62,538 nt of DNA, from NCBI GenBank assembly GCA_015485335.1, contig WFTT01000044.1:1-62538 (forward strand). The letters are read 5' to 3'. Below, one piece after another: positions 41,810 to 50,251 of the stretch. The stretch is from Robiginitomaculum sp. Lineage in GTDB: Bacteria; Pseudomonadota; Alphaproteobacteria; Caulobacterales; Maricaulaceae. Numbering within the stretch: position 1 is the first letter of the stretch; each line of letters begins with the position of its first letter. The notes beneath the pieces were generated by a model that ran no database searches, was not told where the DNA came from, and worked only from the letters and a program-made list of their open reading frames with translations. The position numbers and the translations under genes are program-made.

Positions 41810-42172
41810 ATGATTTCCTTCACCACCACACGGGACAACAAAGTCCTTGGCTTTCGCGTATCCGGGAAACTCAGCGCGAAAGATTATGAAGACGTGCTGA
41901 TGCCAGCCATCGAAGCCCAGATCAAAGACCAGGGCAAAGCCCGCATCCTGATTGAGTGGGATGAAAGTTTCAAAGGCTGGGAAGCCAAGGCCATGCTGGA
42001 CGATATGCGCCTGGGCTTTGCCCACTGGAATGACTTTGAAAAGGTCGCGCTGGTTGGTGCACCTAAATGGCTCGACATTTTCTTCAAATTCTTTGACAGC
42101 CTGTCCAAAGGGGAAGTCAAAGTATTTGACGAAGGCCAGTATGATGCGGCCATGGCCTGGGCAGAGGCCTAA
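41810..42172 (+). CDS. SpoIIAA-like (STAS-related) protein
   Basis: The 120-residue protein resembles SpoIIAA-like/CRAL-TRIO-like proteins of Proteobacteria, with VLGFRVSGKLSAKDYEDVLM, ILIEWDESFKGWEAKAMLDD and VKVFDEGQYDAAMAWAEA. No anti-sigma factor target is nearby. AAAGGAGG lies before the start. It converges on the bufferin operon's DoxX gene with a zero-base gap. The function is unknown; binding of lipid or a membrane component has been proposed for relatives. Confidence 0.85.
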   Translation: MISFTTTRDNKVLGFRVSGKLSAKDYEDVLMPAIEAQIKDQGKARILIEWDESFKGWEAKAMLDDMRLGFAHWNDFEKVALVGAPKWLDIFFKFFDSLSKGEVKVFDEGQYDAAMAWAEA

Positions 42173-42655
42173 TCAGCGCTTTTTACCAAGCATGGCATCC
42201 AGCGACAGATTGCCGGGACCATAGGCCATCAGAGCAAACAGGATGACCGTCCACCACACATGGTCATTCCACCACAGGCTGAGCCCCTGTCCGGTCCAGA
42301 ACGGATAGACCAGGGTGGAGATAACCAGAGTCATTACCAACAGGCCGGCACTGGCAAAGCGGGTCATAAAGCCCACGATCAGCATCAGGGGCAGCACCGT
42401 TTCCCCAAAAGTGGAAAGCGCCCCCGCAAATACGGCCAATCCATGGGGAATGCCCTCAAAATATTCATATTCAAAGAGATCAACCGCAGTGCCAAAATCC
42501 TGTACTTTCAGGATACCGGATTTAAGGAACATGCGCGCCATGACCAGCCGCGCCGCCAAAGCCGCCAATCCCTGAAAATGCATGCTTAGGCCTTCGAAGC
42601 GACCATAAAGATTCTGGGCCTTGGCCAATAGGCTGGCCTTGTTATCATTGGTCAT
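42173..42655 (-). CDS. DoxX-family membrane protein of the bufferin operon
   Basis: The 160-residue protein has four transmembrane helices and the DoxX patterns LAARLVMARMFLKSGILKV and ETVLPLMLIVGFMTRFASAG. In bufferin operons (including the Caulobacter gig locus) a DoxX protein is the usual last partner. It may pass electrons or act in the membrane step of processing or export, but this is not proven. Its start lies inside bufC (11-base overlap) after GGAGAGC; a frame from 42676 is possible. Confidence 0.88.
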   Translation of the reverse strand: MTNDNKASLLAKAQNLYGRFEGLSMHFQGLAALAARLVMARMFLKSGILKVQDFGTAVDLFEYEYFEGIPHGLAVFAGALSTFGETVLPLMLIVGFMTRFASAGLLVMTLVISTLVYPFWTGQGLSLWWNDHVWWTVILFALMAYGPGNLSLDAMLGKKR

Positions 42656-43415
42656 CGTGCTCTCCGTTAAAGACACCGGCGCTTAGCCAGTGTGCAAATT
42701 CCCTGGTCAGATCAAAGGCCGGATCATACCCCATGGCATCGGTCCAGCCTTGTGCCAATGAATGCCCACCGCCTATGGCATCCAGAAAAACATATTGCGC
42801 CCGGGTAAGGCTGGTATGGCGGATTTGCAGGTCCTGGCGCCAGATAAGCGCCCATTCACGCCCGGCTTTCAGGTCGATTTTACGCACATCATCATCTTCG
42901 ATATTGGTGCGCCAGATTGAATAGGCCGGTACGGAAAAGCGCAACAGCGTTGCCGAGACATGCAGACCCGGTGCCAGCGCCGGCAGCGCTTCGGGGGCCA
43001 TACCCTGTAATTCATCAGCTGCCAGTGCCGGCGCATTTGCCGCGCCATAGGCAACAAACCAGGCCCAGTCGAGACGGGCCACCGGGGCCAGCCAAGGTAG
43101 CTCGTTTTGCACCGGCGCAAAAGTGCGCAAAAAATCTGCAAACCCGGCCCCATAATGGGTGAGGCTAGCAGATGAGGGCGGATTTTCCTTTAAAAACGCT
43201 GTCATCAGGGCGGCGAAATATTCATCCCCGACCAGCCGGTTGACCGCCTTGTAAATGCCCTGCATGGCTTTGGTGGTGGTGATGCGAAAATTGCTCTGGT
43301 GGATATCAAGACGTGCCACATGAGTACCCTCTTTTAGCCATGGCAGCATGATGTCAGCATCACCGCCGCCAAGCATATTGGCAAACCGCTCATAAAATTC
43401 CCGATCCTCAGCCAT
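42645..43415 (-). CDS. bufC: BufC-type DUF2063 partner protein
   Basis: The 256-residue protein has the DUF2063/HvfC N-terminal domain: FRITTTKAMQGIYKAVNRLV and YFAALMTAFLKENPPSS, with YGAGFADFLRTF. A looser C-terminal domain follows (about 110-245). Although annotated as DNA-binding in some families, in bufferin systems it partners the BufB enzyme and probably presents the precursor. Its start lies within bufB (eight-base overlap), so the two are translationally coupled. Confidence 0.9.
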   Translation of the reverse strand: MAEDREFYERFANMLGGGDADIMLPWLKEGTHVARLDIHQSNFRITTTKAMQGIYKAVNRLVGDEYFAALMTAFLKENPPSSASLTHYGAGFADFLRTFAPVQNELPWLAPVARLDWAWFVAYGAANAPALAADELQGMAPEALPALAPGLHVSATLLRFSVPAYSIWRTNIEDDDVRKIDLKAGREWALIWRQDLQIRHTSLTRAQYVFLDAIGGGHSLAQGWTDAMGYDPAFDLTREFAHWLSAGVFNGEHDDQ

Positions 43416-44262
43416 GCCCGGCCTCCAGACCTACATCATCCAGCACCAGATTGGCCTGATGCGCTTCGGCCATCAGCTCGGCAAAGGCGGGAATGTTTTC
43501 ATCGCGCTCGATCAGTGTGGGTTTTGACCCCGCCGTGCGGATAAAGTCTTCATAAAGCGCCCAGACGGCCCCGCTGATCGGCGCACCATGGCTGTCAATC
43601 AGAACCTGATCCCCATTGCGGGTTTGGGCGGTAAAGCCCGCCAGATGCACTTCGCCAACCTCCTTTGGGGGCACAACATCCAGCCAGTCCTGGGGGCTGC
43701 CGCCCAGATTTTGGGCGCAGACATAAATATTATTCAGATCGAACAACAGACCCGCCCCGGCGATTTTGGCGGCCTCAACATATAATTCCATCATGGAAAT
43801 ATCGCCCTGTAACGATATATACAGCGCCGGGTTTTCAATAAGGATTTGCCGCCCTAGAAAATCCTGGGTCTCGGCAATATGCGCCGCCAGGGCATGCAGG
43901 GTCTGGCGGGTTGGTGGCGGCGGCAACAGATCGGCAAAGTAAACATCACCCAAACGCGACCAGGCCACATGTTCGGATACACTGGCCGGGTTATACCGAT
44001 CCACCAGTGTTTTTAAACGCGCCAGATGATCCGGATCCGGACGATCCGGTCCGCCCAATGACAAACCCACCCCGTGCAGGGAAAGGGTAAAACGATCGGC
44101 AATGGCATCCAACCAAGCCAGCCGCGGCCCACCTTCAACCATGTAATTTTCCGGGTGCACCTCAAACCACAGACCATTGGCGGGTGCCGCCAGGGCATCT
44201 CGATAATGCTCTGGTTTCAGGCCCAGACCAGCCCGTTCCGGTAATGTGTGGTGCTTTGTCAT
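43408..44262 (-). CDS. bufB: BufB-type multinuclear iron oxidase (DUF692)
   Basis: The 284-residue protein is a DUF692 TIM-barrel enzyme. Visible are GLGLKPEHYRDA, the metal-ligand regions SLHGVGLSLGG, SEHVAWSRLG, ENPALYISLQ, LLFDLNNIYV, GEVHLAGF and DSHGAPI. The His/Asp/Glu set matches the MbnB/BufB iron site. These enzymes oxidise precursor cysteines to thiazole- or oxazole-type rings using oxygen. The neighbouring precursor and DUF2063 partner identify it as the maturation enzyme of the bufferin. Confidence 0.94.
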   Translation of the reverse strand: MTKHHTLPERAGLGLKPEHYRDALAAPANGLWFEVHPENYMVEGGPRLAWLDAIADRFTLSLHGVGLSLGGPDRPDPDHLARLKTLVDRYNPASVSEHVAWSRLGDVYFADLLPPPPTRQTLHALAAHIAETQDFLGRQILIENPALYISLQGDISMMELYVEAAKIAGAGLLFDLNNIYVCAQNLGGSPQDWLDVVPPKEVGEVHLAGFTAQTRNGDQVLIDSHGAPISGAVWALYEDFIRTAGSKPTLIERDENIPAFAELMAEAHQANLVLDDVGLEAGHG

Positions 44263-44276
44263 ATAATTTCCAAATC

Positions 44277-44314
44277 AAAACGGCGGCCGCGCCCTTTGCA
44301 CAACCGCCGCTTTT
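44277..44314 (-). terminator. hairpin between bufA and bufB (partial terminator)
   Basis: On the minus strand AAAAGCGGCGG is followed 17 bases later by CCGCCGTTTT, a GC-rich stem with a T-run. It lies 24 bases after the bufA stop and 15 bases before the bufB start. It could cut transcription or stabilise the precursor mRNA so that more peptide than enzyme is made. Confidence 0.6.
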
Positions 44315-44337
44315 CATTGTGCGTTTCCGATGAAGGC

Positions 44338-44652
44338 TCAGGCCTTGATCGCTGCCTTGGCTTCGTCTTTGAGCATGCCTTTGTGCTCGGTGCCGTCTTC
44401 GGCTTTTACCACGGTTTCATGACAGGTGCCTTTGGCAACAAATTGCCATTCGCCGGCGTCATAGCTGACGGTGGATTGACCCTGGCAGGAATGCGTGCCG
44501 GCAAGATTGCCGCAATCATTTTCGCCAGCCAGTGTAATGCCATAGCATTTTTCCTTGGGGCCTTTGACCTTGGCGGCATTGGCCACACCAGCGGTTAGGG
44601 CAATGGAGGCCACGGAGAGCGTGGCGACACTAATTTTCGTATAAGCATTCAT
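44338..44652 (-). CDS. bufA: bufferin precursor BufA (DUF2282)
   Basis: The 104-residue precursor has a Sec-type signal peptide, with cleavage near GVANA/AKV (residue 26-27). Its core has exactly four cysteines at 36, 47, 56 and 77, in KEKCYG, NDCG, HSCQG and GTCHE. This is the DUF2282 four-Cys pattern of bufferins, periplasmic copper-binding RiPPs in which BufB/BufC modify central cysteines. The start at 44652 gives a normal signal peptide; the longer frame from 44691 has charged residues before it. It is first in the bufA-B-C-DoxX operon. Confidence 0.94.
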   Translation of the reverse strand: MNAYTKISVATLSVASIALTAGVANAAKVKGPKEKCYGITLAGENDCGNLAGTHSCQGQSTVSYDAGEWQFVAKGTCHETVVKAEDGTEHKGMLKDEAKAAIKA

Positions 44653-44779
44653 GGGAAGATCTTTCTTTTTACGTTCCTCGACACGCCACATTCAGCGCGG
44701 CGCCTGCTCAAGACATAGCGCGTCTTGGTGCATTGTCATCATAACATCACCATAACTGGTTATAAAATTAGCGTGAGGT

Positions 44780-49082: not shown

Positions 49083-50251
<1,169 letters not shown>

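Follow-up and report, generated by a model that had tools for sequence, protein, structure and literature searches.

A probable Buf1 bufferin operon with a histidine-type precursor core in Robiginitomaculum

Contig WFTT01000044.1 of Robiginitomaculum sp. (assembly GCA_015485335.1; 62,538 nucleotides, here called the window) contains a minus-strand block of four genes, bufA-bufB-bufC-bufD, that together occupy exactly positions 42173-44652. We assign a probability of about 0.92 to the reading that this block is a Buf1 bufferin (captophorin-type) operon for a periplasmic copper-chelating peptide. The genes and their families, the intact candidate metal ligands, the operon order and the conservation of the operon within the genus are established. 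The operon is canonical and ordinary in kind and adds one member to the published Buf1 family. Its four genes are as follows.

bufA, 44338..44652, minus strand: Buf1/DUF2282 precursor of 104 residues (PF10048; Cys36, Cys47, Cys56 and Cys77)
bufB, 43408..44262, minus strand: MNIO maturase of 284 residues (PF05114, NF050167)
bufC, 42645..43415, minus strand: PME-type 1 partner of 256 residues, DUF2063 with a likely RRE-like domain (PF09836; AlphaFold2 (AF2) and Foldseek)
bufD, 42173..42655, minus strand: DoxX-family membrane protein of 160 residues, starting at the ATG at 42655 (PF07681)

Neighbouring genes are adjacent or overlapping, with 8 bp shared by bufB and bufC, 11 bp shared by bufC and bufD and a gap of 75 bp between bufA and bufB (from the coordinates), and all four reading frames are intact. 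A search of the organism's own genome found a single MNIO gene and a single DUF2282 gene, both in this operon.

Precursor, maturase and partner proteins

A Buf1 operon is defined by a DUF2282 precursor that has a Sec signal peptide and four cysteines; genes for an MNIO enzyme, a PME-type 1 partner (DUF2063 plus RRE, 250-260 residues) and often DoxX come next (PMC12452194). The block in the window has the DUF2282 domain, the four cysteines, an MNIO gene after bufA with its candidate ligands, a PME-type 1 gene and a DoxX gene. The closest described locus is CC3254-CC3257 of Caulobacter vibrioides/crescentus, which matches the window in its four families, in their order and in its DUF2282 precursor; its proteins have 93, 280, 254 and 150 residues (PMC3511200), against 104, 284, 256 and 160 in the window. 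The Pfam matches and the CC3254-CC3257 order bear out the families, gene roles and gene order given in the original prediction. That prediction spoke of a 'Caulobacter gig/bufferin locus', of which the bufferin order holds and the gig name does not: operons of this kind are called 'GIG/gig' in Cupriavidus and Legionella (PMC5413113; PMC12452194), and the Caulobacter genes are CC3254-CC3257.

BufA matches the DUF2282 family (PF10048) at 73.9 bits (E 1e-20; cut-off 22.4). Translated from the ATG at 44652, it has cysteines at 36, 47, 56 and 77 and none elsewhere, exactly the four given with the original prediction. M1, C36, G38, N45, C47, C56 and C77 are invariant across 48 aligned BufA sequences. 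Residues ~1-26 form a putative Sec signal peptide, recognised by eye from a basic start, a hydrophobic stretch and a VANA/A cleavage-like site. The AF2 model (mean predicted local distance difference test score (pLDDT) 77.4, predicted template-modelling score 0.59) falls below pLDDT 50 at residues 1-10 and 12-16, which is compatible with a signal peptide and no proof of one. The assumed mature form (78 residues) contains 11 Asp and Glu against 10 Lys and has a pI of 6.3. The acidic surroundings once attributed to the core cysteines are a weak feature at this unremarkable charge, and we reject the description of the precursor as notably acidic.

BufB matches PF05114 at 288 bits (cut-off 25) and passes the NCBI equivalog model NF050167, MNIO_BufB ('MNIO family bufferin maturase'), at 322.7 bits (cut-off 310). 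Among the best 80 of 488 BufB relatives, the nearest named one, at 92% identity, comes from a Robiginitomaculum sp. metagenome-assembled genome (L003). Eleven residues (H63, H98, E143, N144, D175, N178, H206, D223, H225, E252 and D254) are invariant in an alignment of 146 distinct stretches (168 before removal of identical ones). We take these eleven positions to be putative iron ligands, from published structures; most of them sit in motifs that align with structure 3bww. The suggestion that BufB might lack the metal ligands, raised as a test of the original prediction, fails, with all eleven candidate positions kept in 146 of 146. In HvfB, N175, D242 and H244 are essential according to a 2026 preprint (PMC13419390). 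Read through the 3bww alignment, with HvfB itself unaligned, these residues correspond to the D-x-N-N and D-S-H segments of BufB.

BufB is also weakly homologous to MbnB (7dz9, E 1.2e-8; TIGR04159, 51.9 bits), as expected if the maturase made an oxazolone-thioamide of the methanobactin kind and the peptide scavenged copper for uptake. This alternative is highly improbable: the TIGR04159 score lies far under the cut-off of 325 bits, the BufB model is passed, the partner is a DUF2063 protein and not MbnC, and the precursor looks Sec-exported. In addition, oxazolin, formerly assigned an oxazolone-thioamide structure, has been revised to 5-thiooxazole (PMC13097082). We therefore reject membership of the methanobactin group on the MbnB model score and the DUF2063 partner. 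Methanobactin MbnABC and pearlin TglHI share distant MNIO homology with the window operon and differ from it in precursor and product.

BufC matches PF09836 (DUF2063) over residues 9-96 at 61.9 bits (cut-off 27.2). AF2 modelling with 10 sequences gave a best model at pLDDT 82.4 and others at 81.0, 77.5, 55.7 and 53.0, so two of the five are poor. In the best model, the N-terminal half is helical and the C-terminal part is strand-helix. Foldseek finds three PDB matches to it with E <=0.001, namely 8hci_A (E 1.8e-4), 3dee (NGO1945; E 3.3e-4) and 8hi7_A (E 8.5e-4). Their TM-scores of 0.54-0.66 and root-mean-square deviations of 5.0-7.6 indicate resemblance in fold and not in detail. We infer that chain A of 8hci and 8hi7, the TglHI complex, is TglI, since the DUF692 protein is chain D; the TglHI partner chain thus resembles the BufC model in fold. 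A partner fold with an RRE-like domain is likely for BufC, judging from the model; a sequence search of PDB sequences with BufC returned no matches. BufD matches PF07681 (DoxX) at 49.9 bits (cut-off 23.6).

Proposed pathway, regulation and distribution

Caulobacter Buf1 is reported to carry thiooxazoles formed from cysteine, to chelate Cu(I) and Cu(II) and to aid growth in copper excess; its central cysteines are modified and the outer pair is linked by a disulphide (PMC12452194). The 5-thiooxazole has been argued to be the shared product of MNIO-PME1 clusters, with a role in copper detoxification (PMC13097082). The steps proposed here for the window peptide, from modification and cysteine roles through export to copper binding and physiological function, are taken by analogy from these relatives. 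BufA would be synthesised with a Sec signal peptide that doubles as a recognition handle, and BufC, through its DUF2063 and RRE-like domains, would present it to BufB. Together with BufC in the cytoplasm, the multi-iron MNIO BufB would convert Cys47 and Cys56 to 5-thiooxazoles, and Cys36 and Cys77 would form a disulphide. Sec export would follow modification, and the mature peptide of ~78 residues would chelate periplasmic copper and lower free copper, with BufD (DoxX) as a membrane accessory. A copper P-type ATPase is encoded at another site of the genome (TIGR01511, 609.6 bits; cut-off 397), so the bufferin would be an additional layer and not the sole copper defence. Two partial matches to the ATPase model score below its cut-off (G000:C106:54389-55186 and G000:C77:27-569, the latter at the start of its contig).

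Several observations weigh against the assignment. BufC reaches 24.8 of the 142 bits required by the NCBIfam model of HvfC, and BufD 49.2 of the 80 required by that of HvfX. Three of the 18 genus genomes lack the precursor, and two of these three belong to the 11 with a completeness of 90% or more and a contamination of 5% or less. Caulobacter operons of this kind are under sigma-F and NrsF control (PMC3511200). NrsF was found in none of the 18 genus genomes, in which the sigma factors themselves were not searched. Between bufA and its upstream gene there is no match, at up to two mismatches, to the Caulobacter sigma-F motif (GTAACC-N16-CGAA, spacer fixed at 16 bases). The motif has no exact match in the window, and at two mismatches it gives 35 matches, where chance predicts 37. 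As judged from these searches, some of the metal-responsive control associated with the operon in Caulobacter is missing, and the window operon differs from Caulobacter Buf1 in both respects. In the published Buf1 family, association with a sigma factor and NrsF is optional.

The HvfC and HvfX models are named for the oxazolin branch. Membership of the oxazolin/EGKCG captophorins is rejected on their two scores, on 194.8 of 360 bits for BufB with the HvfB model and on the lack of any EGKCG repeat in the bufA translation. Oxazolin (HvfABC), gonophorin and fontiphorin likewise combine an MNIO enzyme with a DUF2063/RRE partner (PME1) acting on cysteine peptides, and a Sec signal is reported for oxazolin too. 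Their precursors carry EGKCG repeats, whereas BufA in the window has a DUF2282 domain and two core cysteines.

The regulatory differences also bear on the identity of the metal. The same peptide and chemistry could serve mainly another soft metal, under gold, mercury, cadmium or chromium stress, a reading that the lack of NrsF and of a sigma-F motif near bufA would suit. CC3254-CC3257 are induced by dichromate and cadmium via sigma-F (PMC3511200), gig operons take their name from induction by gold, and fusions of MerC with bufferins are known (PMC12452194). We nevertheless regard a main target other than copper as unlikely: the CC2906, CC3255 and double mutants of Caulobacter are described as not more sensitive to dichromate or cadmium (PMC3511200), and copper protection is reported in Caulobacter (PMC12452194).

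The three genus genomes without a precursor would also fit a decayed or unmodified relic. For the window operon we give this very little credence, because its four frames are intact, the candidate ligands and the four cysteines are invariant, and 14 distinct cores of the genus preserve the four-Cys pattern. Given those three genomes, the system does look dispensable.

A DUF2282 precursor is present in 15 of the 18 genus genomes (own included), in 50 of 137 family genomes, in 48 of 200 genomes sampled from the order and in 102 of 398 sampled from the phylum. BufA relatives occur in 176 of 72,556 plasmid records, every one below 60% identity. The system is common and patchily held. Gene order in 112 loci, two of which are the window itself, is ABCD in 55, ABCDD in 5, AABCD in 3, ABC in 32 and otherwise in 17; 28 of the 32 ABC loci are genome-search stretches that are probably too short to include bufD. 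Strings such as BACD in this survey most likely reflect stop-to-stop open reading frames (ORFs) sorted by their starts. In a literature search naming the genus, none of the matches listed contained the name Robiginitomaculum.

Upstream of bufA, an alignment of 14 genus loci, own included, reveals a loosely conserved block (by eye) that starts with TCAC and continues with a TGT-A-G-GAC part.

Upstream block of bufA, 44735..44776, minus strand: candidate regulatory or promoter element (14-locus alignment)

A strict form of the pattern occurs at four places in 3 of the 18 genus genomes, all of them upstream of a bufA, and at none in the other 12 genus genomes that have bufA. This specificity is partly circular, because the pattern was written from the sequences searched. 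In the window, a terminator-like hairpin (44790-44770) abuts the block, which may be a promoter, an operator or a read-through control.

On the downstream side of the operon, a SpoIIAA-like gene (41810-42172, plus strand) is convergent with bufD, with zero bases between the two, and a tRNA-thiolase-type gene follows, which we take to be mnmA. A methyltransferase gene lies on the upstream side. Farther along the window, a DNA methylase with a RAMA domain (49083-50171, minus strand; PF01555 and PF18755) is presumably the cell-cycle methyltransferase CcrM.

Core spacing and the histories of precursor and enzyme

The segment between the second and third cysteines distinguishes BufA from the precursors examined in its family outside the genus.

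Core Cys47-Cys56, 44485..44514, minus strand: CGNLAGTHSC, with x8 spacing and His54 (spacing survey, residue numbers)

The spacing survey covered 258 DUF2282-like ORFs in 249 of 250 loci, with distinct cores counted together with short flanks. The pattern C-x10-C-x7-C-x20-C accounts for 159 distinct cores, x8 for 29, x6 for 26 and other spacings for 5, with 11 unparsed. Eight of these 11 start with C-A-G or C-S-G and fell outside the first expression, two are pieces of a split precursor and the last is truncated where its contig stops (L153). The split precursor is a DUF2282 gene upstream of bufB in Pseudomonas morbosilactucae (L071), spread over two frames; it may have lost its activity, or the split may stem from a sequencing error. 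Three loci from the same order (L208, L233 and L238; G008, G092 and G102) have two DUF2282 precursors near each other, and several of their cores begin C-A-G, not C-Y-G, with short HSC-type cores. A second survey used a more permissive expression, left the flanks out of the cores and included later loci; it indicates that spacing goes with the residue two before the third cysteine. This residue is Thr in 149 of 151 x7 cores and His in 30 of 31 x8 cores; in the 32 x6 cores it is His 20 times, Ser 11 times and Asn once.

In the genus, each of the 14 distinct full-length cores has x8 spacing and a His two positions ahead of the third cysteine (Cys56). Elsewhere in the family, the 14 distinct cores examined (16 loci of 14 genomes, from 35 genomes with a match) are all x7 with Thr before (Ser/Thr)-Cys. 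The genus therefore differs from the examined family members by one inserted residue, in effect the His of G-T-H-S-C. The Caulobacteraceae cores are likewise x7/Thr, a comparison that does not include the C. vibrioides sequence itself. The x8 type is not new: 14 genomes beyond the genus, 4 sharing its class and 10 only its phylum, contribute 15 of the 29 distinct x8 cores of the first survey; uniqueness to the Robiginitomaculum organism is accordingly rejected. Of the variant anticipated from the core spacing and acidic surroundings, the spacing stands for the genus against the examined family members, and its newness and the acidity do not. The difference is real but small. Robiginitomaculum NORP54 has a pair of bufferin operons (L004, L007), each with a His/x8 core; the cores of L148 and L154 (G581) are identical to these and most likely belong to the same genome.

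Almost the same core occurs in Buf1 precursors of other classes, the x8 'GTHSC' families f41 and f44 (N-L-A-G-T-H-S-C-x-G-Q in f41). The tail of the window BufA lacks the ...GSLTP-like end of x7 rows and resembles the G-M-x-K-x-E-A-K of these x8 precursors. Their maturases are distinct: in a 55-row set, f41/f44 BufB forms a clade separate from that of the genus.

Trees of the three proteins give differing pictures. The BufB tree (146 rows) unites the 15 genus rows in a single clade (Shimodaira-Hasegawa-like approximate likelihood ratio test 100) within a 94-row group (support 93), whose other 79 rows comprise 78 x7 and one unparsed. This group holds mostly Caulobacteraceae, Maricaulaceae and Burkholderiales-type enzymes, with f41/f44 apart. 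The groups compared below, including the one called the crown, were named, for BufB too, once the 146-row tree had been seen, and the 55 rows were our choice from the 146. In the 55-row BufB tree, genus plus crown has support 100/98, and genus plus f41/f44 is rejected (approximately unbiased test, p-AU 3.4e-7). The BufA tree (68 columns) places the genus with four f41 precursors at 98/89. For these columns, genus plus crown alone is disfavoured (p-AU 0.022), genus plus crown plus five other x7 rows is not rejected (0.227), and neither is genus plus f41/f44 (0.513); the corresponding values for the 44 core columns only are 0.033, 0.215 and 0.405. BufC places the genus with the crown at 92/80, under the program's own mark for good support, and genus plus the x8 families is not rejected (p-AU 0.256; 4 of the 55 rows, whose BufC is short, left out).

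From these comparisons, BufB of the genus seems to group with x7 enzymes, and BufA seems to lean towards the x8 families. A mosaic operon, in which BufB and BufC of the Caulobacterales-centred x7 clade were kept and a His-type x8 core was taken over or re-evolved, would be a tentative explanation that we regard as somewhat doubtful. Because a BufA tree congruent with x7 is not rejected and BufC is indecisive, a precursor swap is only a possible reading. Ancestral retention, or insertion of one residue within the genus, may explain the core instead. If the operon were a mosaic, the extra His next to the second modified cysteine would serve as a ligand of copper or as a tuning residue, BufB would be tolerant of core spacing, and cores would be exchangeable between lineages, altering metal affinity.

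The operon carries a published family of copper-buffering peptides into a further alphaproteobacterial genus. DUF2282 precursors have two recurring core types, Thr (x7) and His (x8 and 20 of 32 x6), closely tied to spacing. The apparent disagreement between core type and enzyme clade in this genus offers a natural pair of precursors for questions of copper affinity and enzyme specificity.

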